Under the pieces are notes generated by a model. That model was not told where the DNA came from. It worked only from the letters and a program-made list of their open reading frames with translations, and made no database searches. From the IMG/VR virus record IMGVR_UViG_3300042731_004198, positions 1 to 23,760 of that record: 23,760 bases of DNA; one strand, 5' to 3'. A program made the position numbers and the translations under genes. Shown here piece by piece: positions 1,649-19,501 of the stretch; positions within the stretch are counted from its first letter, which is position 1; each line of letters begins with the position of its first letter. Origin of the DNA: a virus.

Positions 1649-1829
1649 CGCACCTCCTCTCGACCTGGTCGACCCGTACCTCAAGCCGGGTCACTCGGTC
1701 CCTCGTCTCCTCAGGTGCGGCGCGGTCGATTCGCTCGACCAGCGCTCGGATGGCGCCCATCGTCCGCCAGTGACTCCCGAGCACCGAGAGAACGATCGCG
1801 GTCGCGCTGCCGACTATCTCGAGCTCCAC
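1641..1829 (-). CDS. Small single-helix membrane protein, lysis-associated candidate
   Basis: The protein has 62 residues. The start is GTG 1829, which overlaps the endolysin stop codon as TAGTG, so translation is probably coupled. Residues 4-18 (EIVGSATAIVLSVLG) are hydrophobic and could form one short membrane helix. The rest is highly charged and heptad-like (RVTRLEVRVDQVERRC), compatible with a short coiled coil. One helix plus a coiled coil immediately after an endolysin suggests a holin-associated protein, loosely like XhlA but with the order reversed. I recognise no specific family. The reading frame is supported by its tight fit between the endolysin stop and the start of the next gene, which it overlaps by 8 bp. 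Confidence 0.6.
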   Translation of the reverse strand: MELEIVGSATAIVLSVLGSHWRTMGAIRALVERIDRAAPEETRDRVTRLEVRVDQVERRCDG

Positions 1830-2701
1830 TAGTGGTCCTCCGCACGCCAGAACGCGCGCAGCTCGGCCTCGGTGCCGAGGTAGACGTCGCGGTCGATCGC
1901 CCCGCGCCCACCTCGGTACCACGGAACCCGGCCGCGGTTGCCCATGACCTGCCAGACCGAGACCCGCGGCCAGGGCGGGGTGAGCCGCGTCGGCACATCG
2001 AGCGCGCTGGGGAGTCCCTCCCCCCGCCACCCGCCGGCGTGCCAGAGAGGCAGACGGGCGAGGTCGGCGCCACCTGCTAGCCGGTAGCGGTGGTAGCTCG
2101 GCTGCACGTAGAGGACGGGAGGCCGCCCCATCCTCGCCTCGACCACGGCCGCCCACGCAAGAGCCCACGCAATCGTCTGCCGTGCCGAGACCCCCTGCGC
2201 CCAATCCTCGAGGTCGAGCGCCAGCACGGGCAGCTCGAGCTCGAGAGCCGCATCCGCCGCCACAACGGCCTGAGCTCGGGGCGGCGAGCCGACGCGGCCG
2301 TACGCGTAGCCGCCCAGGCAGATCTCCGGCGCTGCGGCCCGAGCGCGCACGACGTGATGCACCGCGCTCTGCGTCGCTCGCCGGCCCTCGGAGATCTTGA
2401 CGAAGGCAAATCCCAGCCCAGCCTCTCGCGCCGCGGCCCAGTCGAGCCCGGCAGCGACCTGGTAGCCCGAGATGTCGCATCCCTCGACGATCCCCAGGAT
2501 GGCCCGGACCAGACGGGGGCGGAGCTCATCGAGCGCCGCCCCGTGCCAGCTCGGATGGTGCTCGATCCAGGCGCTGACGGCTGCGGTGGTCTCGGCGCCA
2601 TAGATGCCGTCTGCGCCCCAGCGCGGCAGGCTGCCCGAGTCCGCCGCAAGCAGCGAGCGCTGGAGCCGCACCACATCGGGGCCTCGGGATCCTCGCCTCA
2701 C
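1829..2701 (-). CDS. Endolysin: peptidoglycan-binding domain plus GH25-type muramidase
   Basis: The protein has 290 residues. About residues 1-60 resemble a peptidoglycan-binding domain (GPDVVRLQRSLL, then DGIYGAETTAAVSAW). From about 73 onward it matches glycoside hydrolase family 25: CDISGYQ with Asp76, FAFVKISEG at 98-106, the acidic LDLED pair at 162-166 (D163, E165), VWQ near 249-251 and AIDRDVY near 268-274. This family cleaves the N-acetylmuramic acid to N-acetylglucosamine bond of cell-wall glycan. There is no signal peptide, so export would need a holin. The GTG start at 2701 lies 6 nt after a -10 element and has no Shine-Dalgarno, suggesting a leaderless mRNA. It heads the lysis and appendage unit. 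Confidence 0.9.
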   Translation of the reverse strand: MRRGSRGPDVVRLQRSLLAADSGSLPRWGADGIYGAETTAAVSAWIEHHPSWHGAALDELRPRLVRAILGIVEGCDISGYQVAAGLDWAAAREAGLGFAFVKISEGRRATQSAVHHVVRARAAAPEICLGGYAYGRVGSPPRAQAVVAADAALELELPVLALDLEDWAQGVSARQTIAWALAWAAVVEARMGRPPVLYVQPSYHRYRLAGGADLARLPLWHAGGWRGEGLPSALDVPTRLTPPWPRVSVWQVMGNRGRVPWYRGGRGAIDRDVYLGTEAELRAFWRAEDH

Positions 2702-2707
2702 GTCCGC

Positions 2708-2737
2708 AGTTTAGGTGGTGCCGGGCGCACGGGTCAA
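2708..2737 (-). promoter_or_regulatory. Promoter for endolysin unit, leaderless type
   Basis: On the minus strand, TTGACC (2732-2737) and TAAACT (2708-2713) are separated by 18 nt, a near-consensus sigma-70 promoter. Six nucleotides separate the -10 from the GTG at 2701, so transcription would begin at or next to the start codon. Confidence 0.7.
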
Positions 2738-2741
2738 GACC

Positions 2742-2769
2742 TTGCTGCACGCGCTTGGCGTGCTATCCT
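2742..2769 (+). promoter_or_regulatory. Promoter for plus-strand gene, leaderless type
   Basis: TTGCTG (2742-2747) and TATCCT (2764-2769) are separated by 16 nt, and TGC directly before the -10 gives an extended -10. Six nucleotides separate the -10 from the GTG at 2776, the same distance as for the endolysin promoter on the other strand. Confidence 0.65.
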
Positions 2770-2776
2770 GAGCACG
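2759..2776. promoter_or_regulatory. Candidate operator: perfect 6-6-6 dyad over the plus-strand -10
   Basis: CGTGCT (2759-2764) and AGCACG (2771-2776) are exact inverted repeats with a 6-bp spacer containing most of the -10 element; the right arm ends on the first base of the GTG start codon. A bound repressor would block this promoter. No regulator gene is in the window. Confidence 0.5.
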
Positions 2777-3351
2777 TGGCAGTTTACGTAACCAACACGC
2801 TGCGCCAACTCGAGCGCGACCTCCGGCGCGATCTGCGCCAGCGTGAGGCTCGAGTCATGGCAGCAGCGCTCAACGCGACGATCTTCGATGTGCGCGAACG
2901 CTTGATCGACGAGCTCCCGCAGCACTTCACGATCCGCAACACGTGGACCGAGCGAGGAACGCGAGTCACGAAGGCCACGACGACTGAACCAACCGCAATC
3001 GTCGGTTCCGTCCGTGACTACATGGAGATCCAGACCGTCGGAGGCCAGCGACGATCGGCCAGCGGAGAGCGCGTCGGGGTCCCCTTCCGGGCCCGCCCGC
3101 GCCCGAAGTCACGGATCACGCCGGCGAAGTTCCCGGGCGCCCTGCTCCGGAAACGCGCCTTCCAGATCGGCGAGCTCGTCCTCGAGCGTCGGGGCCGAGG
3201 CCGCAAGCGCGCCAACGTCGTGATGTACTACCTCGCGCGCTCGGTCCGGGTCCGGCCCGCCTGGCCGCTCGAGGAGACGCTCCGACGAGTTGTCGCCACG
3301 GAATGGCAGGACAACATCCGGACCGCGATGCAACGCCTCTGGCGGCGCTAG
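2776..3351 (+). CDS. Tail-morphogenesis-like protein (gpZ-type), the only plus-strand gene
   Basis: The protein has 191 residues from GTG 2776. A TTG at 2755 would extend it by seven codons, but that stretch contains the -10 element. The protein is basic: a helical start (LRQLERDLRRDLRQREARVMAAALN), a middle with FTIRNTWTERGTRV, VRDYMEIQTVGGQRRS and ITPAKFPGALLRKR, then VVMYYLARSVRVRP and a C-terminal helix ending in RTAMQRLWRR. This layout recalls phage minor tail or virion-morphogenesis proteins such as lambda gpZ, by general pattern only. No such gene lies in the usual head-to-tail position near 15 kb, so this may be the displaced equivalent. It converges on the tail fibre, their stops interlocking in CTAG at 3348-3351. 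Alternatively it is a cargo gene expressed on its own. Confidence 0.65.
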   Translation: MAVYVTNTLRQLERDLRRDLRQREARVMAAALNATIFDVRERLIDELPQHFTIRNTWTERGTRVTKATTTEPTAIVGSVRDYMEIQTVGGQRRSASGERVGVPFRARPRPKSRITPAKFPGALLRKRAFQIGELVLERRGRGRKRANVVMYYLARSVRVRPAWPLEETLRRVVATEWQDNIRTAMQRLWRR

Positions 3352-4742
3352 GTGGTCTGATCGTCGATCAACCCCATCGTATCGAGTGTCGTGAGCAGGT
3401 TGGCAAGCGCTACGTTGCCGCCCTTGGCCCCGACGACGGCCGGCGGATTCGGGCCGCCGCTCGCTGTCCATCCGGCGTAGAGGTGGGAGCCGAAGAAGAC
3501 GTCTCCGGTCTCGGACTCGATCTTCCAGTAGAGATCAGCATCCTTGCCGCCCACGACCGCGTTCGCCTCGTTGACGATGACGCCCGCTCCGTCGAAGAGC
3601 GAGGCCAGGACCACGGTGTCGTTGCTCTGGATCGCGACCTGCCCGCGCACGGCGACCGCCGACGAGCCGTTGCCCTGCATGTCCGGCGCGTTGGCCCCGT
3701 CGGACCCGCACGAGATCAGAGCTGACTGCGTGGCCGCCCCCGAGATCGTGCCCTCCTGGCACGCGAGGGCCACGCAACTCCCGCCCGTGGTGTCGAGCTC
3801 GACCGATTGCGAGGCGATGATCGCCCCGCGGTCGCAGTCGTCGATTTCGCAGTCCTGACAGGCTGCGATCAGCGAGTAGAGTCCGGTGGACTCGATCCGA
3901 GTCGGATCAGCCGCCGTCCCCCCAGAGGCAAGGATCGCGCAGCCAGGACCCTCATTGTCGACGTCGCCGAAGGCCACCCCGAAACAGGCAGCGACGAGCG
4001 CGTTGGCGGCGTCGACATCCGCGCGATAGCTGGCGATGGCCGCCGCCCGATCGCTCGCGGCGTTGAGACCGAGCCGACAACCGTCCGTCGCCAACAGCGT
4101 CGCCTGCTGCGCGTGCTGACCTAGCTGCAGACTCGCGGACGCGATCCCGGCGACGTCCCGGGCGTCCGCGTGAATCGGCGCGCTCGTCGAGACCGCCGCG
4201 AGCAGTGCGCGCTGACCGGCGATCTGTCCGGCGTTGGACGCGAGCAGCGCCGCAAGTTGAGCCGTCGCGTCGATCTGCCCTCCCTCGGTCCCGAGCGCCA
4301 CGGACTTGTCGCCTGCGATCGGGATGTTGCTTGCTCCGAGAGCGCCACTGACGTCGCCCGTCGCCTGACACGAGATCGAGCCGCCGACGAAGGAATCCGC
4401 ACCGGACGCCTGCGAGTTCCAGCTCGCCGCGACTGCACGCCGATGCGTGGTCGTTACCGCTCCAGTGTCTGTCGCGTGGCTGATCAGTCCCGCGATAGCT
4501 GGCGTTGCGAGGATGTGAGCCGCGATTGCCTGATAGAGCTGGCTCTGATCGGTCTTGTCGAGGCCGATCGCCGCGGCCAAGATCACCGAGACGATCTCCT
4601 CCTGGACGGCGTTGAGCCAGTCGGAGCTGACCACCGTCCCGCGGACGGCGTCCGTGGCCTTCCGGTAGTACCCCGGAGCCGGTCCGATGGGATCCGGGAC
4701 CGGCATCACCGCCACGTTGTCTGCTGTGTCGATCCGGTACAC
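3348..4742 (-). CDS. Tail fibre with beta-roll-like repeats
   Basis: The protein has 464 residues. The start GTG 4742 follows GGAGG with a 5-nt spacing. Residues 15-80 (GPAPGYYRKATD, then GTVVSSDWLNAVQEEI) match the N-terminal attachment region common in phage tail fibres. Residues about 100-370 are built of imperfect repeats of some 14-17 residues with the pattern small-Ala-Ile/Leu-Ala-Ser followed by glycine- or aspartate-rich turns (GCAILASGG, YSLIAACQDCEI, GAIIASQSVEL, CVALACQEGTI, SALISCGSDG). These resemble the head repeats of trimeric adhesins and of some fibre shafts. About ten cysteines lie in the repeat region, many for an extracellular fibre. The C-terminus (VVGGKDADLYWKIE, then NLLTTLDTMGLI) looks like a trimerisation or tip segment. 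It follows the gp48-like gene, the usual place for a Mu-type fibre. No chaperone follows it. Confidence 0.8.
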   Translation of the reverse strand: MYRIDTADNVAVMPVPDPIGPAPGYYRKATDAVRGTVVSSDWLNAVQEEIVSVILAAAIGLDKTDQSQLYQAIAAHILATPAIAGLISHATDTGAVTTTHRRAVAASWNSQASGADSFVGGSISCQATGDVSGALGASNIPIAGDKSVALGTEGGQIDATAQLAALLASNAGQIAGQRALLAAVSTSAPIHADARDVAGIASASLQLGQHAQQATLLATDGCRLGLNAASDRAAAIASYRADVDAANALVAACFGVAFGDVDNEGPGCAILASGGTAADPTRIESTGLYSLIAACQDCEIDDCDRGAIIASQSVELDTTGGSCVALACQEGTISGAATQSALISCGSDGANAPDMQGNGSSAVAVRGQVAIQSNDTVVLASLFDGAGVIVNEANAVVGGKDADLYWKIESETGDVFFGSHLYAGWTASGGPNPPAVVGAKGGNVALANLLTTLDTMGLIDDQTT

Positions 4743-4751
4743 TGGAGCCTC

Positions 4752-5975
4752 CTAAGTCGGTAGGTCTACCTCGTTGGCGCGACGGCCTGAGATCGCGTGG
4801 ATCGTCGAATCCACCTGCTTGATCCGCTCGTAGAGGGCCAGGATCTCTACCCAACTCGCGGGCGCGAACGCCTGCCAGACGTACCACGTGCGCGTGAACG
4901 TGTCGTCGTAGACCCGCTCGTCGGCCGCCCCCTCGTCTGCCCGCAGGAGCACGGGGACTTGGATCTCCAGCGCGCCGTAGCGCTCGGCGATCCAGGCCGA
5001 CATGCGCGCGGTGAGGTCCCCAGCGAAGATCCCGACCTGACCGAGATGGCCGCCGTGAAATAACCCGCCGCCGGCTGTGTAGCGCCCAACGGTGAGCTGC
5101 GTCGTTGTCGGCAGCAACGTGATGTAGACTCCCTGCGCGGTCTGCCCGCCGTCTTGGTAGAGGGTCAGGCGCTTGAGCGCCGTCTCATGTCTGAGGACGA
5201 CAAGCTGCCACATGTCGTCAGCCAGCGGTGCGCCGATGAGGTTGACCTCGATTACGCCGCCCACGACCTGAGTCGCTGTGAGCACTCCACCGAATCGGTG
5301 GATTACTAGTCGATTTGAGGTGTTGAGCCAGAACTCGAGGTAATAGCCGTTCCCCGACCCGAGATCATTGTGAACCCAGAGCGCAATCGTCCAGTCACCG
5401 CTGGGCAGCACATAGGGAGCCGAGGCCGAATCAGCCAACCCATCGAACCACGTGAGCTGCCTACGCCAATCGTCCGGGTCTCGGACGACGTCTGCTCCCG
5501 CCAGAGTCCAGTCAACCGAGCCGACCCGGTCTGTCACGACTGGACCCCCGAGCGCGTCCAGGAGCTGGCCATTCCAGACATGCTCCGCTCCGAACTCCTC
5601 GGCCCAATCCGCGTCCTCGGTCGTGTACCCGAGAGCCGCCGCAGCCGCGACGAGGATCTGGCACTGCGTGCCAGCCTGAGCGACCAGGCGCGCATGGCAC
5701 TCGGCCTGCCGCTCAGCGAGCGTGGCGGCGGGCTCGGTCACCCCGAGGATCCGCTCCCAGCCCTCGATCAGCTCGTCAGCCGTCCGCGGATCGGCCTCCT
5801 CGAGCACGTCGAGCAGCCGTCCATGTGCGCGAGCCCACTCCTCGGCGAGTGCGTCGGTCGTCTCGTCGAGCCCCGGACCCGACCAGACCTTGCCTCGGGG
5901 CAGGATGCGTCGGAACGCCTCGGCGTAGCCAGCGGCGGGGACCGCGCGGAAGAAGACCGGGAGGGCGATGGGCAT
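4752..5975 (-). CDS. Mu gp48-like baseplate protein with apparent LamG/lectin-like insertion
   Basis: The protein has 407 residues, about twice the usual length of the gp48 (DUF2313) family. The start ATG 5975 overlaps the gp47-like stop as TGATG. Residues 1-125 are gp48-like (YAEAFRRILPRGKVW, AEEWARAHGRLLDVLEEADPRTADELI, WERILGV, CQILVAAAAALGY). About residues 140-335 look like a concanavalin/laminin-G-type beta-sandwich: DWTIALWVHND, YYLEFWLNTSNRLVIHRF, MWQLVVLRHE, LKRLTLYQDGGQ, LTVGRYTAGGG and HLGQVGIFAGDL are in the order seen in such domains. Residues 355-395 may be the rest of gp48. Gp48 helps join the baseplate wedges to fibres, so the insertion may give carbohydrate binding at the baseplate edge. 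The domain assignment is by pattern only. Confidence 0.8.
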   Translation of the reverse strand: MPIALPVFFRAVPAAGYAEAFRRILPRGKVWSGPGLDETTDALAEEWARAHGRLLDVLEEADPRTADELIEGWERILGVTEPAATLAERQAECHARLVAQAGTQCQILVAAAAALGYTTEDADWAEEFGAEHVWNGQLLDALGGPVVTDRVGSVDWTLAGADVVRDPDDWRRQLTWFDGLADSASAPYVLPSGDWTIALWVHNDLGSGNGYYLEFWLNTSNRLVIHRFGGVLTATQVVGGVIEVNLIGAPLADDMWQLVVLRHETALKRLTLYQDGGQTAQGVYITLLPTTTQLTVGRYTAGGGLFHGGHLGQVGIFAGDLTARMSAWIAERYGALEIQVPVLLRADEGAADERVYDDTFTRTWYVWQAFAPASWVEILALYERIKQVDSTIHAISGRRANEVDLPT

Positions 5976-7129
5976 CAGGGCAGGTAGGTGAAGGGCCGGG
6001 TGGGCACCGGGTAGCTGTTGGCGCCGATCACGATGTCCGCGGGCGGCGCGCCGTCGATCGCTGTGAGCTCGTGGCTCTCCTCGCCTGGAGCCGCGACGAT
6101 GGCTCCGATCACCTGTGAGACTTTGATCGTGCCCCCTGGCTCAGCTCGCTGGAGCATGAGCGCGTCGACGGCCTCCTCGATGGCCGTTCGGACGTCGGCG
6201 GTGTCAGGGTCGAGGCTCGTGATCTCGAACGTGACGGCCTGCGCCGCGAGATGCGGGCTCGTCGCGATGTTGATGCGGTCCCCGATGAGCGGCGCCGGCG
6301 AGACCGCGTCGTGATACGGGGGGTCGTAGCTCGCGGTCCCGCGGATATAGTCGCGCACCGCCTGAGCCTGCCCAGCCGATGGAATCGCGTCCACCGGCAG
6401 ACCAGTTGCCGGGTCGACGATGAATCGGATCGTGATCTCGCCGAAGAGCGGCTCGTTCGGGCTGACCCAGACCTCGCGCACATTGGCGCACGCGGCCTTG
6501 GTCCAGGCGACGAAGTCCGCCACCGCTCCGCCTTGCGGTGGCTCGGAGAGCCGGTCAAGCACTCGTCCGCGAAGTGCGGACAGGGTCTCCTCCGAGACCC
6601 CGCCCGTGAACCCCCCTGCGCCGACCTCGCACGCCGAGTCCACTCCTGATAGAGGACTCGTGAGCGTGAGCGCCTGACCCGCGGTCGAATCGTAGTCCTC
6701 GCCCTCCTCCTCGGCGGTCGCGGCGAGGGTCACCGTCCCTCCGCCGCCGATCACGCCACCGGGCGCGTCCACGAGATAGATCAGGCCATCGTTGCGCCGC
6801 GCCTCGGTGCCGGTCGGCACCGAAGCCCCCACCGAGCCCGAGAACAGAATCGAGCCTGTGGCCTTGACCGGCACGACGTCGGCCAGATCGAGCATCTGCT
6901 GCCAGCGGACGACCCCCGCCTCAGAGGCCAGGTCCGGGAAGATCTCACAGGCGATGTTGGCGGCGAATCGATGGAGCCCCCAGCTCGCGCCGGCCTCAGT
7001 CAGCGCCAGCGCGCGGAGCGGACGATACCGGAGCTTGGCGTCCGCTCCGGGTACGTGGGAGTCGACGTCGGCCGTCGTCCGGTCGACGACGTCCTCAAGC
7101 GTAGGGACCGCGAATCCTGAGTCGGGCAT
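5975..7129 (-). CDS. Baseplate J-like protein (Mu gp47 type)
   Basis: The protein has 384 residues from ATG 7129, which overlaps the preceding stop as TGATG; a GTG one codon upstream (7132) is possible. It begins with FAVPTLEDVVDRTTADVDSHVPGADAKLRYRPL, the N-terminus typical of the baseplate J family, followed by GSVGASVPTGTEARRNDG near residues 105-125 and the glycine-rich TGGVSEETLSALRGRVLDRLSEPPQGG near 175-205. The C-terminal part (AVTFEITSLDPDTADVRTAIEEAVDALM) is also typical. This is a main component of the baseplate wedge and contacts gp46 and gp48, whose homologues flank it here. Confidence 0.93.
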   Translation of the reverse strand: MPDSGFAVPTLEDVVDRTTADVDSHVPGADAKLRYRPLRALALTEAGASWGLHRFAANIACEIFPDLASEAGVVRWQQMLDLADVVPVKATGSILFSGSVGASVPTGTEARRNDGLIYLVDAPGGVIGGGGTVTLAATAEEEGEDYDSTAGQALTLTSPLSGVDSACEVGAGGFTGGVSEETLSALRGRVLDRLSEPPQGGAVADFVAWTKAACANVREVWVSPNEPLFGEITIRFIVDPATGLPVDAIPSAGQAQAVRDYIRGTASYDPPYHDAVSPAPLIGDRINIATSPHLAAQAVTFEITSLDPDTADVRTAIEEAVDALMLQRAEPGGTIKVSQVIGAIVAAPGEESHELTAIDGAPPADIVIGANSYPVPTRPFTYLP

Positions 7130-7596
7130 CACACCTCCCAGGCGTATGCGTAGCGTAGCACGTCGGGATCCTCCGATCTACCGCGGCGGATCTCGACCCC
7201 GAGGCTGATCGCCGAGCCTTCCCGACGGACATCCGCCACGACCTCGGTCGCGACGCCGTCCTGGACCAGCCACGCGAGCGCGTCCTCGACGTATTGCCGG
7301 AGCCGCTCGGGAGTACCGTCGACAAGAAGTGCTCGGTCACCGAGCCAGAGACGCGAGCCCCACCCGTCGCCAACGGTCTCGGGGAATGAGTCCCCCCACC
7401 AGCCCCGCCGATCCTCGTCTCCCGAAAGGAGCTCCTGGGGCTCGATGCGACGATCGGTGAAGAGCGACACGACGACAGCCGCTTCGAGTTCGATGAGGCT
7501 CTCGCCGGACCAGTCGTCCGGCGGGGGGAAGATCGCATGCCCGGACTCGAGGCCGTCCGCGTAGACGCGGGAGATCTTGGTCTCGTTGGTGATCAT
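7129..7596 (-). CDS. Baseplate wedge protein, Mu gp46-like
   Basis: The protein has 155 residues from ATG 7596, chosen because it overlaps the gp45-like stop as ATGA; a longer frame upstream lies entirely inside that gene. It shows the gp46 pattern: an aspartate-poor start leading to ESLIELEAAVVVSLFTDRR, then DRRGWWGDSFPETVGDGWGSRLWL (the W-W-G-D motif is characteristic), and a C-terminal VEDALAWLVQDGVATEVV followed by strands. In Mu this small protein, with gp47 and gp48, builds the wedge around the hub, like gp25 of T4. Tight overlap on both sides implies coupled translation. Confidence 0.88.
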   Translation of the reverse strand: MITNETKISRVYADGLESGHAIFPPPDDWSGESLIELEAAVVVSLFTDRRIEPQELLSGDEDRRGWWGDSFPETVGDGWGSRLWLGDRALLVDGTPERLRQYVEDALAWLVQDGVATEVVADVRREGSAISLGVEIRRGRSEDPDVLRYAYAWEV

Positions 7597-8228
7597 GAAT
7601 CCGCCTTGAGCACGGAGCTCCCGCTCGTGATCCGGGCGGCAAGCGCGGCCGGCAAGGGCGGCATGCTCCCAACCCCGTAGATGGCCTCGTAGAGCGGCTT
7701 CACGACCAAATGGACCGCGCCAATCCACAACCAGTATACGGGATCCTCTACTGCGGTCGAGCTCGTCGAGTCGGTCACGCGCGCGACTGATTGGAGGTCG
7801 AGCGGCGCCTCTGGACCGACCTCACACGCGTTGCCCGCCGCGGGCATGATCGCGATCTTGGTCCGCCGGAGCATGATGAGCTGCCCGTCGAGGTCCCAGA
7901 GAACCACGTCTCCCGGATCATCAGGATGCGGCCTGGCCTCGCGGTAGGCCGTGGCGACCGCTACCGGATGATCCGATGCCCCCCCGAGGTGGAGCACGAT
8001 CGCCTCGGAGCCCACTGGGGGACGGGTCGTCAGGCCATAGTGCTCAAAGTGCTCGACCCGGTCTGCCGTATCGCGGTCCTCGCCCTCCCCGGTCCCTGCG
8101 AGCTGCACCTCGCCTTGCGCCGGCGAATCGTCCACGAGCTTGACGACCGCCCGCCGGAGGAGATCTGTCACCCGCAGCCGGAGGGGCCGTAGCACCTCGT
8201 CGATCCTGCGCTCGATCTCGCTGATCAT
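7593..8228 (-). CDS. Baseplate spike or assembly protein, Mu gp45-like
   Basis: The protein has 211 residues from ATG 8228, which overlaps the hub protein stop as ATGA. Residues 3-35 are helical and charged (EIERRIDEVLRPLRLRVTDLLRR). An OB-fold-like section follows: VEHFEHYGLTTRPPVGSEAIVLHLGGASDHPVAVAT matches the conserved core of the gp45 family. The next part (GDVVLWDLDGQLIMLRRTKIAIMP) fits the beginning of the membrane-piercing spike. Mu gp45 trimerises to form the spike tip. Here the last 50 residues (YWLWIGAVHLVVKPLYEAIYGVG) are more hydrophobic than expected for a spike tip, and I see no HxH iron-binding motif. Confidence 0.88.
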   Translation of the reverse strand: MISEIERRIDEVLRPLRLRVTDLLRRAVVKLVDDSPAQGEVQLAGTGEGEDRDTADRVEHFEHYGLTTRPPVGSEAIVLHLGGASDHPVAVATAYREARPHPDDPGDVVLWDLDGQLIMLRRTKIAIMPAAGNACEVGPEAPLDLQSVARVTDSTSSTAVEDPVYWLWIGAVHLVVKPLYEAIYGVGSMPPLPAALAARITSGSSVLKADS

Positions 8229-9307
8229 ACCGGCGACCTCCACGCGCCGAGCCCAGCCCGCGGATTGTCCGGGAGCTGGGGTAGGTACCCCGCCTCAGGA
8301 GCGAGGTAGAGGGTCGTAGTGTACCCTCCCTCGCTGGAGAGGGCGAGATCCACGCTCGTGATCAGCATGTCCGCATCGACACGGCAGAAGGCATCCCGAA
8401 CGCGGATAAGCTCGCCCGGCTCCCAGACTAGGCCCTCGTCGTCTCGCCATCCGCGGATGACGTACTGACCCATGGTCGATCGGCCGAGCCGATTCGCGGC
8501 TGACCACTGAGCCTGAGCCAGCGCGCGCTTACGGCTCAATGAGGAGTCCGCCGAGAGCACGAGCACCCGCCGGCGTGCGCTGGCGGCGTCCGTCGCGGTC
8601 GCCTCGATCCCGGCTACGAGGTCTCCCCACTCCTCATCAGTCCCCACCGACTGACCGCGACAGCGGTACTCGGTGTAGATGTCGGTGGCATCGAAGGACC
8701 ATCGACCCGAGAGCACGTTGCGCCCGCGCTCGAGAGCGATCCCCTCGCGGAGGGGAAACATCCCCGCGCCCGCCTGCCAGAGGACGAGGCGTCCCTCGGG
8801 GTCGTCGTAGACGAGCACCCCGCGGAGCCTGGCTGCTCGCTCGATCGCGTCGTAGACCGACTCGCCCTCGTCGGCCGCGAACCGCGAGATCGGCTCCTCG
8901 TCCAGCAGCGGCGGAACCACCTCGATCGAGTAGGGCGCGCAGAGCCGGATTGCGATCTGCGAGAGGGCAAGGTTGCGGAAGCGGCGCTTGCCGACGATGG
9001 AGCAGTCGACGAGGTCCTTCGTCCGCGAACGCCCAGTCACGGCGACTCCCGAGCTTGATGCATCATAGCTTGGCTCGACAGAGTCCACGTAGCCCGTGAT
9101 CACGCGGTCACCGTCGATCGAGACCTCACAGGGGTCCTCGAGCTGGAATCCGACAGGACTCGTTGTCTGAGACGGGGGGCTGGTGGCGGTGAAGGCGAAG
9201 CTCCGGGCGGCGGTCTCGATCCCGTAGCTCACGGTCACCGACGTCCACCCGCGATAGGACTCGCCGCCGACGCGGAGCTCCACGAGGTGTCGCTCGAGCG
9301 CCGCCAT
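8225..9307 (-). CDS. Baseplate hub protein, Mu gpP / gpD family
   Basis: The protein has 360 residues. ATG 9307 overlaps the preceding stop as TGATG; a GTG at 9310 is the alternative. The N-terminus has the family pattern of beta-strands (VELRVGGESYRGWTSVTVSYGIE), then PCEVSIDGDRVITGYVDSVEPSYDASS and VTGRSRTKDLVDCSI, seen in hub proteins of Mu (gp44) and in late-control protein D of P2. Later parts include GESVYDAIERAARLRGVLVYDDPEGRLVLWQAG and a C-terminal WEPGELIRVRD. A trimer of this protein connects the tail tube to the spike encoded by the next gene. Confidence 0.9.
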   Translation of the reverse strand: MAALERHLVELRVGGESYRGWTSVTVSYGIETAARSFAFTATSPPSQTTSPVGFQLEDPCEVSIDGDRVITGYVDSVEPSYDASSSGVAVTGRSRTKDLVDCSIVGKRRFRNLALSQIAIRLCAPYSIEVVPPLLDEEPISRFAADEGESVYDAIERAARLRGVLVYDDPEGRLVLWQAGAGMFPLREGIALERGRNVLSGRWSFDATDIYTEYRCRGQSVGTDEEWGDLVAGIEATATDAASARRRVLVLSADSSLSRKRALAQAQWSAANRLGRSTMGQYVIRGWRDDEGLVWEPGELIRVRDAFCRVDADMLITSVDLALSSEGGYTTTLYLAPEAGYLPQLPDNPRAGLGAWRSPV

Positions 9308-12386: not shown

Positions 12387-12387
12387 G

Positions 12388-12560
12388 TCACCTCCGGACC
12401 AGCCCCAGTAGACCCGGGGCCTGCTCGATCAGATCCCGGACCCGCTCCTCCCAGAAGGCCAGAGCCGGGGCGTCGAGGCTCAGGACGTCGACTCCCGGGA
12501 AGACTCGCCCGACGACGGCGAGCCGGAGCTTCCAGTCGCCGGGCCAGATCGAGAAAACTC
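12388..12560 (-). CDS. Frameshifted extension of tail assembly chaperone (probable -1 shift)
   Basis: This frame is open across the end of the chaperone gene and continues past its stop for about 30 codons to 12388. Relative to the upstream gene it is -1. It has no ATG; the first in-frame start-like codon is a TTG at 12660 inside the other gene. The part likely to be used (SIWPGDWKLRLAVVGRVF, then ALAFWEERVRDLIEQAPGLLGL) has the tryptophan-containing acidic helix style of tail chaperone extensions. The left boundary given is approximate. No canonical X-XXY-YYZ heptamer is visible; the T-run in GAGTTTTCT near 12555 and TTTTCC near 12600 are the nearest candidates. The family is known to use frameshifts here, in lambda and Mu. 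Confidence 0.6.
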
Positions 12561-12857
12561 GTGGATCACGCGGTTGAGCCGGGGAACATCGCTCGCGTCC
12601 ACCCGGAAAAGCGCTGAGAACGGAAGCCCCGTCGTGCGATGAGTCGCGAAGATCACCCAAGTGACGCCTTCCTCCACCTCATCGAACTCGGCCGCCACGA
12701 AGTCGCCCGCGACCAGCCGCCGGCCGTAGCGGAGCACCTCGACGGTCTCACCGCCGACGACGATCGGGACGTTGAGGCGGAGCTCGCGAACCCAGTCGGT
12801 CGGCGGATAGACGACCGTCGGGACCATGCCTCGCGCCATCTCAGGGGTGATCGCCAC
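12480..12857 (-). CDS. Tail assembly chaperone, Mu gp41-like
   Basis: The protein has 125 residues. The start GTG 12857 follows AGGAGG. Residues 15-105 show the pattern of gp41-type proteins (YPPTDWVRELRLNVPIVVGGETVEVLRYGRRLVAGDF, then PFSALFRVDASDVPRLNRVIHEF). The last 20 residues (GPATGSSGSPSSGESSRESTS) are low-complexity, which suits a short unshifted product. These proteins bind the tape measure during tail assembly and are not in the finished particle. The position between tube and tape measure, and the overlapping second frame, support the call. Confidence 0.85.
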   Translation of the reverse strand: MAITPEMARGMVPTVVYPPTDWVRELRLNVPIVVGGETVEVLRYGRRLVAGDFVAAEFDEVEEGVTWVIFATHRTTGLPFSALFRVDASDVPRLNRVIHEFSRSGPATGSSGSPSSGESSRESTS

Positions 12858-12872
12858 AACGCCTCCTGGCGA

Positions 12873-13247
12873 CTAGGTGATCCGCCGCATCTTGCGACCC
12901 TCGAAGCGAAGCGGACATGTCCCCGCGATCACGTCCGCTGTCAACTCACCGATCTGCGACCCCCCCTCGAGTACGTAGCTGATCCCGTTGTAGCCGTCGA
13001 CCTGGATCGCGACGTCCTCGACTGCTCCGAGCGCGAGGAGATCGACGCTCGAGCGGAGGATCGTCGTCGTCTGGAAGTAGGGCGTGGCAGGCACGATCCG
13101 CACACCAGCGACACCTGTCTGCCCAGTGACGGTCTCACGGATCCAACTCAGAGGCTGGATCTCGAAGTCCCCCTCGATCTCGATCGGCCCGACTCCAGGG
13201 ACGATGCATGAGAGCACGCCCCCGACCCTTGTAGTAGACGCTGCCAT
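12873..13247 (-). CDS. Tail tube protein, Mu gpM-like
   Basis: The protein has 124 residues. The start ATG 13247 follows AGGAGG with an 8-nt spacing. The pattern of a tube protein of contractile tails is seen: an N-terminal TTRVGGVLSCIVPGVGPIEIEGDFEIQPL, a middle VRIVPATPYFQTTTILRSSVDLLAL and a C-terminal strand series (VLEGGSQIGELTADVIAGTCPLRFEGRKMRRI). Hexameric rings of this protein stack inside the sheath, whose gene is immediately upstream. The length agrees with Mu gp40 (about 118 residues). Confidence 0.88.
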   Translation of the reverse strand: MAASTTRVGGVLSCIVPGVGPIEIEGDFEIQPLSWIRETVTGQTGVAGVRIVPATPYFQTTTILRSSVDLLALGAVEDVAIQVDGYNGISYVLEGGSQIGELTADVIAGTCPLRFEGRKMRRIT

Positions 13248-13259
13248 CTCTCACACCTC

Positions 13260-14750
13260 CTAGTCGGCCAGGTACTGGAGCAGGAACGCGTTCTTGATGG
13301 CGACGATCCGGAGCTGGTTGACGTAGTCCGGGTTGACTTCGATATCGATCCGGTTCGGGTCACCCGGCGGACGGACGATCGTGATCGCCCGCTCGAAGAG
13401 CTCCGCGTTCTCGACGAGCCCCTCCTTCTCCATCAGCCCATACTCAGACACGATCGAACCCTTGAGCAGCCGCGGTGTGGTCACGGCTTGTCCCGGACCG
13501 ATTGGCGTGTCGTCGTTCGCGAGCGAGTGGCGCGGCCAGTCGCTCCTGATACGCGCGTCGATCCGGCGATCGAATTCTGCCGACGTGTACATCGTGCAAA
13601 CGTCGAGGTAGCTGTCGTCCGCCACCCCCTGAGCATCGAGCTGGTAGGTCGAGATCAGCCGCTCGATCCGGACCTTGCCCGCGCTGTCCGTGGTGAGCGT
13701 CGAGATCCCGTCGAAGAGCAGCACGTTCCGCTGGGCCTGCGTCCAGCGCACCGTCTTCGCCGCCGGCAGGACGCCGGGGAGCTCGAGGGTCTGCAGCGGC
13801 CGGGCCGGAGAGTCGGAGAGACTCCGGTAGATCCGACCGACGATCGTCCCTGCGACCTCCCAGGGGAGCGTCGGCAGGGCCTCGAGCCCGACGATCGTGT
13901 TGTTCGGATCGTTCTCCGCGTTCCCCAGGGTCGTCAAATTGCCCGGGGTGTCGCAGTAGGCGCAGAACGCGTGGCCGTAGACCATCCGGTTCCAGGCCCA
14001 GCGCCCCGCCGTGAAGTTGAGCAGCTCTTCGATCTCGTCGAGCGAAGTCGAATCCAGGTACGGGTGGACGATGAAATCGAACTCCTCGTCGCCGAGGAGC
14101 GCCGCGATCCCCGAGATGTCGGGGTTGGTCGCGCCAGCGACGCCCGCGGCGACGGTCACCGTCACCCCGGGCACGTCCTCGTCCGTGTCGAGGTAGTTGG
14201 TCCGGATGTCGATCTGGTTGCCCGTCAGGCCCTTGTTCTTGGCGGTGCATGTCACCACCGGGGGGACCGCGGCGCTCGTCACAGGGAGACCTGCTGTCGC
14301 GGTGATCGCCGCGTCGATCGCGGTGGCGATCGCGTTGGCCGCGTCGCCCGAGGCGACCGCCACGGGGATACGCGTCCCAGCGATGTAGAGGGCGACGGTC
14401 CCGGCCGCGGTCGCGGCGCCGGCGACCGTGATCGTCTGCGTCGCCGCCACCCCTGCGACGGCGTCGTCGACCGCCACGCCCCAGACCTCGGCGTTCTGGT
14501 TGGCGGCACGGATGCCTCTCATCATGTGGTGCAGGATGGATCCCTCGCCCCAGTAGCCGCTCGCGGCTCGATCGCTGGCCACGCGCTTGAGGACGCCGGC
14601 CGCGACCGAACCCGCGGACGTCCGTCCGCCGATCATCAGGATCGGTCGGTCTCCCGTGCCCGGCGAGCCCGCGCGGGAGTTGTCCATCTCCAGAAACAGA
14701 AACGGCGTTCGGAGGCTGCCCGCCGCTGGAATCGTCGCGAAATCCACCAC
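13260..14750 (-). CDS. Contractile tail sheath protein, Mu gpL-like
   Basis: The protein has 496 residues, the usual length. The start GTG 14750 (or 14747) follows GGGAGG. Characteristic parts are FATIPAAGSLRTPFLFLEMDNSRA at the N-terminus, GVLKRVASDRAASGYWGEGSILHHMMRGIRAANQNAEVWGVAV near 55-100, the middle EFDFIVHPYLDSTSLDEIEELL, and the C-terminal FERAITIVRPPGDPNRIDIEVNPDYVNQLRIVAIKNAFLLQYL, which is a hallmark of the Mu-type sheath. Between about 100 and 210 is an Ala/Thr/Val-rich beta domain that probably faces outward. Sheath contraction drives the tube into the host. Confidence 0.94.
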   Translation of the reverse strand: MVDFATIPAAGSLRTPFLFLEMDNSRAGSPGTGDRPILMIGGRTSAGSVAAGVLKRVASDRAASGYWGEGSILHHMMRGIRAANQNAEVWGVAVDDAVAGVAATQTITVAGAATAAGTVALYIAGTRIPVAVASGDAANAIATAIDAAITATAGLPVTSAAVPPVVTCTAKNKGLTGNQIDIRTNYLDTDEDVPGVTVTVAAGVAGATNPDISGIAALLGDEEFDFIVHPYLDSTSLDEIEELLNFTAGRWAWNRMVYGHAFCAYCDTPGNLTTLGNAENDPNNTIVGLEALPTLPWEVAGTIVGRIYRSLSDSPARPLQTLELPGVLPAAKTVRWTQAQRNVLLFDGISTLTTDSAGKVRIERLISTYQLDAQGVADDSYLDVCTMYTSAEFDRRIDARIRSDWPRHSLANDDTPIGPGQAVTTPRLLKGSIVSEYGLMEKEGLVENAELFERAITIVRPPGDPNRIDIEVNPDYVNQLRIVAIKNAFLLQYLAD

Positions 14751-14762
14751 TTGTCGGCCTCC

Positions 14763-14996
14763 CTACTTGCCCTTGCCCTTGGTCTTGGTCTCGGTCTTGG
14801 TCTCGGTCTTGGCCTCGGGCTCGGGCTCGGGCTCGAACTCCTCGACGTCGCCACACTGGACGGCGCGCACCCACTCGATCGTCCGGGGCACGCGGGCCCC
14901 CTCGGCCGCCAGATACCCACGCTCGGGGTCGTGGTAGAGGCGGTTGAGCCTGGCCCCGAGGGGCCGGACGAACATCGTTTTCGGCGATTTCATCAT
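14763..14996 (-). CDS. DUF2635 family protein (Mu gp38-like) with charged repeat tail
   Basis: The protein has 77 residues from ATG 14996 (a second ATG follows at 14993). Residues 8-55 match the small DUF2635 family found directly before the Mu-type sheath: VRPLGARLNRLYHDPERGYLAAEGARVPRTIEWVRAVQCGDVEEF. Residues 55-77 are a repeat tail: three Glu-Pro pairs, then alternating Lys-Thr-Glu-Thr units, ending in lysine-glycine. The role of the family is not established. The start codon lies 6 nt after a TANNNT -10 with a good -35, so this may be the first gene of a tail transcription unit. The AGGA inside the same -10 could also serve as a Shine-Dalgarno, so the two readings cannot be separated here. 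Confidence 0.8.
   Translation of the reverse strand: MMKSPKTMFVRPLGARLNRLYHDPERGYLAAEGARVPRTIEWVRAVQCGDVEEFEPEPEPEAKTETKTETKTKGKGK
14764..14838. repeat. Short tandem repeat in the DUF2635 gene
   Basis: Two kinds of unit are seen on the minus strand: CCCGAG repeats coding Pro-Glu, then 12-bp ACCGAGACCAAG units coding Thr-Glu-Thr-Lys, then AAGGGC. All units are multiples of 3, so changes in copy number would change tail length without breaking the frame. Confidence 0.8.
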
Positions 14997-15002
14997 GTGA
15001 TT

Positions 15003-15031
15003 ATCCTAACGCCTCAAGGGGGCGGTGTCCA
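15003..15031 (-). promoter_or_regulatory. Candidate promoter for the tail unit
   Basis: On the minus strand, TGGACA (15026-15031) and TAGGAT (15003-15008) are separated by 17 nt. Six nucleotides separate the -10 from the ATG at 14996. The -35 lies within the end of the preceding coding sequence. Confidence 0.5.
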
Positions 15032-15574
15032 GATCGGACGGACCTCAGTCTGCGGGGCATCGCCCGTGCCACCCGCCGGCCGCGCACGGACCGTCACGCG
15101 CTCGAGATCCGGATCCGCGGTATCGCCCTCCGGATCCCAGGTCTCGTCACGGAGGTAGCGGATCTCGATCACGAGCTGGCCGCGGATGTCATCGCCGTCG
15201 ACGGTGCCGCCCTTGGCACTTGTCACGCCTTGCAGCCGCCGAAGAGCCGCGATCAACGGACGGTAGCCGAAGACCGCCGCCTTGATCTCGGCCTCGAGAG
15301 CGTCGATCGCATCCGCGAGGGCCTCGTCGATGTCGTCCCAGGGCTCGGCCGGGTCGAGGACGACCGTCCCGGCGATGGTCATTCGCTCGGTCGTCTCGAG
15401 CTCGGCGATATGACTGCTTCGTCCGGTCGAGTCTGAGCCAGCGGAGAAGACGGTGACCACGGGGACATCGCCGCGCGCGAAGGGACGGGCCCGCGCGTGA
15501 CAGACATTGCCGCCCGCCACGCCTTGTGCAATGAGACGATTGACGATCGTCTGCCTGATCTCCTGGGGGCTCAC
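15014..15574 (-). CDS. Tail completion/terminator-type protein (probable)
   Basis: The protein has 186 residues. The start GTG 15574 overlaps the upstream stop as GTGA. It begins with a helix (SPQEIRQTIVNRLIAQG), then a strand series (ARPFARGDVPVVTVFSAGSDS, ELETTERMTIAGTVVLD), an acidic helix (DIDEALADAIDALEAEIKAAVF) and a final strand (GQLVIEIRYL). This order is that of lambda gpU-like tail terminators and of Mu gp37-type proteins, which close the head-proximal end of the tail. Its position between the head-completion gene and the sheath agrees. The 30-residue C-terminal tail is rich in Pro, Thr and Arg. The assignment is by pattern and position. Confidence 0.7.
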   Translation of the reverse strand: MSPQEIRQTIVNRLIAQGVAGGNVCHARARPFARGDVPVVTVFSAGSDSTGRSSHIAELETTERMTIAGTVVLDPAEPWDDIDEALADAIDALEAEIKAAVFGYRPLIAALRRLQGVTSAKGGTVDGDDIRGQLVIEIRYLRDETWDPEGDTADPDLERVTVRARPAGGTGDAPQTEVRPIWTPPP

Positions 15575-15918
15575 GCGTGCACCCCCCGGACAGAAATCAG
15601 CTCCGCGGTCTGGTCCTGCATGAGCCGCGCGTCTACGACCGTGTACGTCTCGCCGAGATGCGGCCCATCCTGGACCTCGTACACGTCGCCCGCCCTCGGC
15701 TCGACCACGAGGTCTGAGAGGAGCGGCAAGAGCGTCGGCGCGCGGTCGGTCACGATGAGCCCGTCTTCCTCGACGGAGTACTCGTGATCCGAATTGAACT
15801 CCGCCCGGATTGGGACCGCTGAACCGCCGCGCGGCATGTAGCTCACGAGCACGCCCCAGACGTCGCGGGTGGCCTCTGTCGCAAGGCCCTCCGCGACATC
15901 TCGGACTGCTAGAGCCAC
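15571..15918 (-). CDS. Head-tail joining protein, lambda gpFII-like (probable)
   Basis: The protein has 115 residues, compared with 117 in lambda gpFII. The start is GTG 15918, 4 nt after the preceding stop. An N-terminal segment is followed by VSYMPRGGSAVPIRAEFNSDHEYSVEEDGLIVTDRAPTLLPLLSDLVVEPRAGDVYEV, then GETYTVVDARLMQDQTAELISVRG. Proteins of this family often have such an oligonucleotide-binding-like barrel and attach to the portal ring to receive the tail. The position directly after the decoration proteins and before the tail completion gene supports this. There is no strong Shine-Dalgarno. Confidence 0.7.
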   Translation of the reverse strand: MALAVRDVAEGLATEATRDVWGVLVSYMPRGGSAVPIRAEFNSDHEYSVEEDGLIVTDRAPTLLPLLSDLVVEPRAGDVYEVQDGPHLGETYTVVDARLMQDQTAELISVRGVHA

Positions 15919-15922
15919 GTGA

Positions 15923-16408
15923 CTAGGTCAGCGCCACGCCCGGGCTAGCGGCGACGTGCCACTTGAGCGCGGCACCGAGATCGGCGGCGCGGAACGACGC
16001 GAAGTCCTGCGCATCCCCGAAGGTCGCCTTGGTGTTGCCGGCCGAGTCGAAGGCCGACGCGAAGGTCACCTCGATGGCGCCGCCGCCGTCGACATCCATC
16101 CCGAGGTCGAGGATCTGCCCGTCATAGGTCGGATCCGCGACGGTGCGCGTCTCGTCGACCGCGCCGGACGTCATGTTGCACACGCCCGAGACCGTCACGG
16201 GAATGGCCGCGGCGTCCCCGGGATCCGGGATGTCGTAGTAGACCTTGTCGCGCGCCCACGTCGTGGTGCCGAGACAGGTCCACTCGCCGTGACCGGTGGT
16301 CAGCTTCGCGGTGTCACCGGCGTTGCCCGAGAGGACACCGCTCGGGTCCGCGTCGACCTCGTAGTGGATGCGGCTTTGCCCCATCTGGATCTTGTTCACG
16401 ACTGCCAT
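15923..16408 (-). CDS. Second decoration-type protein, paralogous to the C-terminal domain of the upstream gene
   Basis: The protein has 161 residues. The start ATG 16408 follows AAGGAG with an 8-nt spacing. Residues 60-151 align along their whole length with residues 123-213 of the upstream gene: DPGDxxAIPV, SGAxxETRT, DxDGGGxIxVT and a final GD...W segment in the same order and spacing. The N-terminal 58 residues are unrelated to the DUF2190 part of the neighbour and are beta-rich (GEWTCLGTTTW). The position after the capsid gene suggests an outer capsid or head-fibre protein. There is no signal peptide or helix. A virion location is inferred, not shown. Confidence 0.7.
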   Translation of the reverse strand: MAVVNKIQMGQSRIHYEVDADPSGVLSGNAGDTAKLTTGHGEWTCLGTTTWARDKVYYDIPDPGDAAAIPVTVSGVCNMTSGAVDETRTVADPTYDGQILDLGMDVDGGGAIEVTFASAFDSAGNTKATFGDAQDFASFRAADLGAALKWHVAASPGVALT

Positions 16409-16423
16409 ATTTGAAACTCCTTG

Positions 16424-17095
16424 CTACGCGATCGCGCAGCCCTCGTTGCCCTCAGGTCGCCAGCGGCGATTGCCGTCCTCGGCCACACCCACGAGCGTGA
16501 CGGAGTCCCCCTCGTCGCCGACGGTGATCGTCGTCCTACCAGCGCCCAGCCCGGTGGCCACGGTGATCACGATGTTGCCCCCGCCGTCCTGGTCGAAGCT
16601 GAGCTTGAGCTGCTGGCCGAGTGCCACCGGCGGCGCGATCGTCCGCGTCTCTTCCGCCGCACCCGACGAGAGCGCACAACACCCGTCCTGCGAGACGGGG
16701 ATCGCGCCGCCGTCACCGGGATCCGCGATGATCGCCAGCCCCGCGCCGGGCGCGTGAGCTGTTGTTGCCGGAATCGCCACCCGTACGCTCGTTGCCGCCG
16801 AGGCGACGCCGCCCGTGGTGGCGCAGTAGCCGATGTGCTCGCCGGCGGCCTCGCAGCGCTCATCCGTGTAGTCGTAGTAGACGGCCTCGCCCTCGGCGAG
16901 CGCGAAACCGGCCACCTTGGCCAACCGGAAGACCGGCATGAAGGGTACGTCGCACGCGAAGGTCTCGCCGACCGCCGCGGTCGTCCGGGGGACCACGACC
17001 AGCGCGCCGATCTTCACCGGCTTTCCGACCGTCACCCCGCCCGCCGGAGCGGTGAACCTGAGGACGTCACCTGTCAGGACTCTCGGAGCTGCCAT
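16424..17095 (-). CDS. DUF2190-type capsid decoration protein with added C-terminal domain
   Basis: The protein has 223 residues, twice the usual length of the DUF2190 family. The start ATG 17095 follows AGGAGG with a 9-nt spacing. Residues 1-112 match the family: GDVLRFTAPAGGVTVGKPVKIGALVVVPRTTAAVGETFACDV, then ALAEGEAVYYDY and HIGYCATTGGVASAATSVRVAIPAT. Small proteins of this type follow the capsid gene in many phages and can bind the capsid surface. Residues 122-215 are a second domain that recurs in the next gene. Six cysteines are present, two adjacent (139-140). Confidence 0.8.
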   Translation of the reverse strand: MAAPRVLTGDVLRFTAPAGGVTVGKPVKIGALVVVPRTTAAVGETFACDVPFMPVFRLAKVAGFALAEGEAVYYDYTDERCEAAGEHIGYCATTGGVASAATSVRVAIPATTAHAPGAGLAIIADPGDGGAIPVSQDGCCALSSGAAEETRTIAPPVALGQQLKLSFDQDGGGNIVITVATGLGAGRTTITVGDEGDSVTLVGVAEDGNRRWRPEGNEGCAIA

Positions 17096-17121
17096 GTCTC
17101 TCTACCTCCTCTATCGGCGGC

Positions 17122-19464
17122 CTAGCTGGCCGCTCCGAGGTTTCGGTCCAGCCCGCGCCAGTCGGGCACACCGGCGCCCAGCGCGACGGAGAGCCGGATC
17201 TTGAGGCCGCGGATCTCGAAGCCCTCCTCGAGCGCGACCTGCACGCCCTCCTCGCCCTCGAGCCAGGAGTAGTGGACCGTCTCGCCGTCGGTCCCGAACC
17301 ACGCGTTGCCGGCGCCCTTGCCGCCGTTGTACGCGTCGAGGATCGGATCGAAGACCACATCCTGGATCCCCTCGAAGTGCTTGGGGATCGCCGACGCCGG
17401 CGAGGTCACCGCGATGTCGGCCCGGGCCGAGACCATGCCCAGCTCCTGCTGGGCGCGGGTGAGCCACTTGCGCGCGGTCAGCAGCCAGCGGAGCATGTGC
17501 GGTGCCGTCGGGGTCTCGCCCTCGGACGGGGTGTGCCCCGGGCGCGTGGCCATCCGGAGGCCCATCGCGTCGATCGCGGCGATCGATGGGACAGCGCCCG
17601 TGTCATCCGTGTTGCCCCGCGACGTGTGGAAAAGCGTCACGGTGTCGGAGAGCGCGGCGTTGGCGGTCAGGAGCCCGAAGGTCGCATTCCTGATCCGTCG
17701 GTTGGCGACCTTGACGTAGCCTTCGCCGAGCTTCGACCAGGCCCCGAGCCGGTCGTTGACTATCAACTTGCGGGTGAGGCCGAAGATCTTGCCGTAGTCG
17801 ACCACTGCCCAGCCCTCTCGGGACTCGGTCAGGGTCGAGGTTGGGTACTCGCCGCCCTCGTCGATCTCCTCGAGGTCCTCGAGATCCCCCAGGGTGACCA
17901 CGTAGAGGCTCCGGAAGTCGGGGGCATCCATCCTGGTGCACCATCTGAGGTCCACCGGCTGTTCGAGGTAGCCCATCCTGACCGAGGTGTTGAGGGTCTC
18001 GGCCAGGAGGAGTGGGAAGCTCGACGTCGTGTTGAGGCCGCGCCCGTGGAGCCCGGTCCCGATCCCGCATGCCATGTCGGCCAGTCGCCCGACTCCGACC
18101 CCGGCGAGATCGTAGCCGTCCGCGGAGAGCCGGTCCTCGGCGAGCCGCAGGAGGTTGTACCTAGCGTACTTGCGAGCCTCGCGCTTGAGCGCGAATCCCT
18201 CGAGATCCCGGACGTCGAAGCCGGTCGCGGCGAAGCGAACGCCAGCCTCGTCGTTGATGCGGATGGCCTCCTTGACCTTCTGCTCGTCCTTGCCGAGCCG
18301 GACGCACAGGAGGTGCCCGAGGATGCGCATCGCCTCGACGTCGCGCTCATCTCGACCGCCCTCGACCGAGACCGATCCGTGCACGGCGGTCGCGCACTCG
18401 CGCTCTTCGGCCGCGGCAAAGGCCAGCTCGCGAGCCTCGGCCACCGTCACCTTGGAGTCCTCGACCCAGGCGCGGATCTGCTCGTCGCTCGTCCCGAGCA
18501 CCCGGAGGCGCTCGATCTGCGCCCGGCGCTCATCACGCTCGGCCACGATCTGGCGCGCACGCTCCTCGGCGAGCTCCTCGACCCTGATGTCGCGGATCTC
18601 GATCTCGCTCGCGGTGAGCCCCGGCATTCCTGTGTCCGGCATCTCTGCCCCCTGTCGTCGTGGCGGTATCGGAACCGCCCTGAACATCGCGCCATCGTCT
18701 GCGCCCATCGGGACAGACGAGACCTCCATCGGCTCCCAGTCGATCACGAGCACCCGGTCCGGGCCTCCGTCGCCGGGGATCCAGATCTGTTCGAACGGCC
18801 GCCAGCCAACCGAAACGTTGCGCCGGATCCCGTCGGCGATCTCCTGGACGTGCGCCTCACGCTCCTCGTCGAGATGCGAAGAAAACCGCGCGGTCCCCAC
18901 TAGGGCCCGCTCGTCACCCTCGCCTTCGACGCGAATTGACCCCTGCACGAAGACGCCGATCTGCGCCCGGGGGTCACCCGCCCGGTGGACCATGAGCACC
19001 GGCGCCCCGTTGTTGATCCGCCCGAGCCGCACATGCTCGGGCTGCAGGCTCAGCCGCTCGTAGTAGGCGATCTCGCCGCCCCACGTGTAGCGCGGGATCT
19101 CGTTCGTGCGCTCGTCCGAAAGGACGAGCTCGATGGTCCGCGCCTCGGGGTCCCATGTCCTCGGCCTGACAGTGGCCGAGATCTCGGATGGCTGGTCCGC
19201 AGCTCGTGGGACAACGCCCTCCGCCTCGCGCGCCTTGAGGCGCCCGATCACGGCCTGGACGCCCTCGCGGAGAGTGATCGTCCGGAATGAGCCCTCTTCG
19301 AACTCCGCGGGCTCACGCTGCCGGAGCCGGAAGGTCTCATCGGTCTCGTCGACCTTGTCCGCGCGATACCCGTGATCCATGGCCCACTGCTTGGCTCTCG
19401 CCGCCGTCGCGAACGACGACCGCGAGAAGATCAGCGTCTGGACTGTGGTTGGCTGGCGAGCCAT
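17122..19464 (-). CDS. Prohead protease and major capsid protein fusion
   Basis: The protein has 780 residues. Residues 1-85 (FATAARAKQWAMDHGYRADKV, TFRLRQREP, FRTITLREGVQAVIGRLK) are a small domain found before some phage proteases. Residues 100-265 are an HK97-type (U35) serine protease with His160 in LMVHRAG, Ser218 in RRNVSVGW and the WEPMEVSSVPMGAD end motif at 243-256. Residues 280-400 are charged and helical, suited to act as an internal scaffold. From about 400 to 780 is the major capsid protein (LLLAETLNTSVRMGY, GKIFGLTRKLIVNDRLGAW, RKWLTRAQQELGM, HFEGIQDVVFDPIL). The protease would release itself and cleave the scaffold during prohead maturation. The start ATG 19464 lies 7 nt after a -10 and has no Shine-Dalgarno. 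Confidence 0.93.
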   Translation of the reverse strand: MARQPTTVQTLIFSRSSFATAARAKQWAMDHGYRADKVDETDETFRLRQREPAEFEEGSFRTITLREGVQAVIGRLKAREAEGVVPRAADQPSEISATVRPRTWDPEARTIELVLSDERTNEIPRYTWGGEIAYYERLSLQPEHVRLGRINNGAPVLMVHRAGDPRAQIGVFVQGSIRVEGEGDERALVGTARFSSHLDEEREAHVQEIADGIRRNVSVGWRPFEQIWIPGDGGPDRVLVIDWEPMEVSSVPMGADDGAMFRAVPIPPRRQGAEMPDTGMPGLTASEIEIRDIRVEELAEERARQIVAERDERRAQIERLRVLGTSDEQIRAWVEDSKVTVAEARELAFAAAEERECATAVHGSVSVEGGRDERDVEAMRILGHLLCVRLGKDEQKVKEAIRINDEAGVRFAATGFDVRDLEGFALKREARKYARYNLLRLAEDRLSADGYDLAGVGVGRLADMACGIGTGLHGRGLNTTSSFPLLLAETLNTSVRMGYLEQPVDLRWCTRMDAPDFRSLYVVTLGDLEDLEEIDEGGEYPTSTLTESREGWAVVDYGKIFGLTRKLIVNDRLGAWSKLGEGYVKVANRRIRNATFGLLTANAALSDTVTLFHTSRGNTDDTGAVPSIAAIDAMGLRMATRPGHTPSEGETPTAPHMLRWLLTARKWLTRAQQELGMVSARADIAVTSPASAIPKHFEGIQDVVFDPILDAYNGGKGAGNAWFGTDGETVHYSWLEGEEGVQVALEEGFEIRGLKIRLSVALGAGVPDWRGLDRNLGAAS

Positions 19465-19471
19465 CCCAATC

Positions 19472-19501
19472 AGGCTAGACGCCGCCTCGCCGAGACGTCA
19501 A
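19472..19501 (-). promoter_or_regulatory. Promoter for capsid unit, leaderless type
   Basis: On the minus strand, TTGACG (19496-19501) and TAGCCT (19472-19477) are separated by 18 nt. Seven nucleotides separate the -10 from the ATG at 19464. It occupies most of the 63-bp gap between portal and capsid genes. Confidence 0.65.

Follow-up and report, generated by a model that had tools for sequence, protein, structure and literature searches.

Leaderless-type promoters are well supported, on the evidence of the DNA sequence, at the starts of the capsid–protease fusion gene (19464), the endolysin gene (2701) and, chiefly by position, a lone plus-strand gene (2776) of this viral record. These sites, and possibly a fourth at the DUF2635 gene (14996), are probably promoters for the primary sigma factor of the host that would give rise to leaderless mRNAs.

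The window, that is, the whole stretch of 23,760 nt analysed here, is viral with a GC content of 68%; the record is classed as linear and is probably a fragment. It contains a contractile-tail structural module, with a head and packaging part (TerS, TerL of the GpA type, a lambda-family portal, the capsid–protease fusion and a decoration protein) and a tail and lysis part (DUF2635, sheath, tube, tape measure, baseplate, fibre and GH25 endolysin). No tRNAs or Rfam families were found in the window. A close relative of the window is absent from the viral collection, where the best sheath match is 47–48% identical. The features that define the four sites are as follows.

19496..19501, minus strand: TTGACG, -35 of the candidate capsid promoter
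19472..19477, minus strand: TAGCCT, -10 of the candidate capsid promoter, in the 63-nt gap between portal and capsid genes
17122..19464, minus strand: capsid–protease fusion gene, predicted leaderless (phrog_4523, E=6e-100; Phage_capsid_4)
15026..15031, minus strand: TGGACA, -35 of the candidate DUF2635 promoter, within the end of the upstream gene
15003..15008, minus strand: TAGGAT, candidate -10 or AGGA Shine-Dalgarno (SD) sequence, ambiguous
14763..14996, minus strand: DUF2635 gene (PF10948, E=6e-7; phrog_208)
2742..2747, plus strand: TTGCTG, weak -35 of the candidate plus-strand promoter
2764..2769, plus strand: TATCCT, -10 of the candidate plus-strand promoter
2776..3351, plus strand: gene for a minor tail/neck-like protein, predicted leaderless (phrog_1924, E=1e-18)
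2732..2737, minus strand: TTGACC, -35 of the candidate endolysin promoter
2708..2713, minus strand: TAAACT, -10 of the candidate endolysin promoter
1829..2701, minus strand: endolysin gene (N-terminal domain and GH25), predicted leaderless, without SD (PF01183, E=9e-12; phrog_1493, phrog_291)

On the minus strand, the elements are arranged as TTGACG-18-TAGCCT-7-ATG at 19464, TGGACA-17-TAGGAT-6-ATG at 14996 and TTGACC-18-TAAACT-6-GTG at 2701, each with a -35 that matches TTGACA in 5/6 positions. The plus-strand site reads TTGCTG-16-TATCCT-6-GTG at 2776, and its -35 matches in just 3/6. The capsid ATG and the GTG codons at 2701 and 2776 have no SD sequence; AGGA precedes the start at 14996. We thus recover every element described in the earlier note, namely four starts with a -35-like hexamer, a 16–18 nt spacer and TANNNT 6–7 nt before the start codon, with the proviso that the -35 at 2776 is weak. 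Its description of the inner genes, most of which have an AGGAGG-like site or overlap the previous stop codon, is likewise correct.

Three gene starts were re-set before counting: portal (21039), gpW-like (21239) and W (7596). The portal gene probably starts at ATG 21039 rather than at TTG 21111, and the small gpW-like gene (66 codons, 21039-21239, minus strand) lies between TerL and portal. A TATACT located 4 nt ahead of GTG 7728 was set aside; this GTG is inside the upstream gene, and the likely start is 7596.

TANNNT is rare in the window, with about 51 occurrences on both strands combined, or about 0.001 per position per strand. Five occur in the 45 nt ahead of the 26 curated starts, and four of them end 6–7 nt before the start, exactly at 19464, 14996, 2701 and 2776. 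This count of 4/26 is a clear enrichment over 10,000 dinucleotide shuffles of the upstream sequences, in which the mean count was 0.17 and none had as many as four (P<1e-4); when the two neighbouring distances may lie anywhere between 3 and 15 nt, P=0.0005. We then defined a joint pattern as TANNNT 6–7 nt before an NTG together with a -35 matching TTGACA in at least 5/6 positions at a spacing of 16–18 nt. Only three of the 1,451 NTG triplets on the two strands carry it, and all three are gene starts (19464, 14996 and 2701); three NTGs picked at random would all be among the 26 starts with a probability of 5e-6. In relatives with a GC content of at least 0.60, the joint pattern occurs at 7 of 161,372 NTGs, with a single match at a large gene, and a further high-GC set has none in 35,067 NTGs, which makes 7 in about 196,000 for the high-GC relatives together. 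Compared with the high-GC relatives, 0.05 matches are expected in the window and three are observed (P about 2e-5). The first packaging gene of the window, TerS (23630), carries TATAAC-5-GTG, lacks a -35 at normal spacing and was left uncounted. Slightly weaker RNA folding at the 5' ends than elsewhere is uninformative.

The single match at a large gene belongs to IMGVR_UViG_3300013119_000180 (L087), found in a screen of fetched relatives. Its TerL is the closest found to that of the window (45% identical), and the same capsid–protease fusion gene has such a promoter at its start, TTGACA-17-TAGCGT-6-ATG. This is the sole TANNNT with a 6/6 TTGACA on that 11.8-kb fragment, and no other such sites were found there; the two capsid proteins differ considerably (about 28% identity), and the site represents an independent orthologous case. 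The sites of the window could in principle be chance matches, with the genes expressed from remote promoters and their translation independent of an SD, and the lack of the pattern in most relatives would fit such an origin. The enrichment over shuffled sequence, over all NTGs and over high-GC relatives, together with the independent capsid site, led us to reject it as highly improbable.

Among about 109 capsid orthologues, the capsid promoter is shared with this one relative only. Such promoter placement is therefore not lineage-wide, and a rule of that kind was rejected; host biology is a likelier cause. The placement is rare among the relatives of the window. The group of Rhodobacter phage RcKvothe, with a capsid of the same capsid–protease family, has the same order of terminase, gpW-like, portal and capsid–protease genes, but there the start of the capsid gene overlaps with the portal gene and lacks such a promoter. 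The first 92 residues of the capsid–protease fusion form an N-terminal domain of about 90 residues that is covered neither by the family profile nor by the matches to relatives.

The endolysin and plus-strand genes are separated by a region of 74 bp. The TAA of TAAACT is an in-frame stop, so that the endolysin cannot start before GTG 2701. Homology from residue 3 fixes both starts, 2701 (phrog_1493) and 2776. This argues against real promoters from which transcription begins inside the genes, or true starts that lie further downstream, either of which would make the mRNAs not leaderless; annotation errors of that kind are on record in Deinococcus (PMC12340547), but we consider either possibility very unlikely here. 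Despite its weak -35, the site at 2776 is credible because of the position of its -10, the start fixed by homology and the opposite orientation of the gene, which requires a promoter of its own. Only 4 bp separate the two -35 elements, so that two polymerases are probably unable to bind simultaneously.

The plus-strand gene (2776-3351) is alone on its strand, between tail fibre and endolysin and apart from the neck genes. A relative was not found among viral contigs, and the gene may have moved together with its own promoter. The minus strand has a second TAAACT near 2786, which is preceded by TTGGCG at 16 nt and followed after 5 nt by a GTG that opens a frame of 13 codons before the endolysin; it overlaps the start of the plus-strand gene via CACGTG.

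The DUF2635 site is ambiguous because TAGGAT contains AGGA at normal SD distance. A leaderless promoter is possible at this position from its sequence, and an SD accounts for the start equally well. We see an even chance that DUF2635 is an ordinary SD-led inner gene, with TAGGAT serving as an AGGA ribosome-binding site and TGGACA present by coincidence. The AGGA is placed 7 nt ahead of the ATG, and 17 nt separate the gene from the preceding one on this strand. The relative L049 (GC 0.55), which shares 13 proteins with the window at about 29–51% identity and is the closest relative of the tail module, has GGAGG before the aligned start, which is SD-led; another TAGGAT in L049, 6 nt from an ATG, has merely a weak -35. 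Against an ordinary inner gene, the window as a whole has just four sigma-70-like sites, one of them TGGACA-17-TAGGAT, which is also among the three joint matches in the NTG count. A more far-reaching proposal, which we regard as doubtful, is that leaderless promoters with a -35 are a general switch for the strongest late genes and that TAGGAT has a dual role as -10 and SD. If true, TAGGAT would act as a -10 in DNA and as an SD in read-through RNA, and DUF2635 would be translated via two initiation routes. As a separate observation, many gene starts in L049 are preceded by GGTTAAGCT- or GTAGCT-like words, without SD.

The earlier note further held that these promoters mark the first genes of the late transcription units and define separate head, tail and lysis units. 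The four sites are indeed located at head, tail and lysis genes. A strict rule, by which each late unit stands alone and begins with a leaderless gene, is nevertheless improbable, and neither claim is borne out. Terminator-like sites are no commoner in the window than in shuffled sequence, and none is found at the proposed head, tail and lysis borders; TerS lacks the pattern, and the DUF2635 site is ambiguous and lies in a continuous run. From TerS to 3348, the same-strand genes overlap or are packed with gaps of mostly 26 nt or less. Two intervals stand out: the 63-nt portal–capsid gap, which is the sole clear intergenic gap of this run, and, at the tail assembly genes, a stretch of 93 nt; of the supposed unit borders, only the portal–capsid gap and the divergent region have real gaps. 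The lack of terminators at the borders and the tight packing of the genes favour an additional capsid promoter inside an uninterrupted run over three separate units. Moreover, a leaderless gene is necessarily the first on its transcript, so that heading a unit is no separate rule. The 93-nt stretch follows a tail assembly gene (12480-12857, minus strand) and is open in another frame (12388-12857 overall), which suggests a programmed frameshift of the E/E' type.

In our preferred reading, that of leaderless promoters for the host sigma factor, the primary sigma factor would recognise the -35, the 16–18 nt spacer and TANNNT at 19464, 2701 and 2776, and transcription would start at the start codon or within one nucleotide of it. 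Such a start implies a leaderless mRNA that is translated without an SD sequence. The start of transcription, the leaderless translation and the timing of expression in the window are what we infer from the sites. The capsid promoter, in the only real gap of the structural run, would boost the capsid gene and the genes downstream of it, and the 74-bp region would hold two back-to-back leaderless promoters. If active, the DUF2635 site would be an internal promoter, with AGGA as an alternative SD in read-through RNA. A common activator site upstream of the four -35 elements was not seen; the sequences there have just short GC-rich words in common.

The layout resembles known leaderless systems. 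In Actinobacteria and Deinococcus-Thermus, more than 20% of genes are leaderless, and TANNNT with its first T about 12 nt before the start codon is their mark (PMC3160421). In Deinococcus, a -10 motif adjacent to the open reading frame drives leaderless genes, and a -35 located 17 bp upstream strengthens it (PMC12340547). The sites described here share the -10 consensus and the distance to the start with these systems (PMC3160421, PMC12340547), which concern cellular genes; the Deinococcus promoters mostly lack a -35, whereas those of the window have one. A -35/-10 layout of leaderless type is also of an already known kind in phages, and its description in the earlier note as unusual for a phage was overstated: middle and late mRNAs of the Thermus phage phiYS40 are reported to be mostly leaderless (PMC3594737), and its sequence contains the same layout. 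Our scan of phiYS40 finds TANNNT at 6–7 nt for 9/48 starts and, in another stretch, 13/54 annotated starts; several sites have TTGACA at 17–18 nt, and two divergent pairs are leaderless in layout. In contrast to the window, phiYS40 is AT-rich with many such sites, and those in the structural stretch scanned mostly lack a -35, while the structural and lysis sites of the window have one. No enrichment of TANNNT at 6–7 nt is seen in the control phages phiC31 and P23-45, and RcKvothe has one match; the test is thus not positive in every phage. The existing picture of leaderless phage transcripts is unchanged by the sites of the window.

The relatives of the window with a named host nearly all belong to Proteobacteria and are too distant for host assignment, and a host search via the plus-strand gene and the endolysin revealed no close relative of either. 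From the promoter sites, we infer that the host belongs to a high-GC lineage rich in leaderless genes. Leaderless promoter use would now include an uncultured high-GC phage with a structural type that we otherwise encountered in phages of Proteobacteria. Leaderless-type sites point to a host with leaderless-rich expression and would provide both a cheap host clue and an aid to start-codon annotation in uncultured phages.
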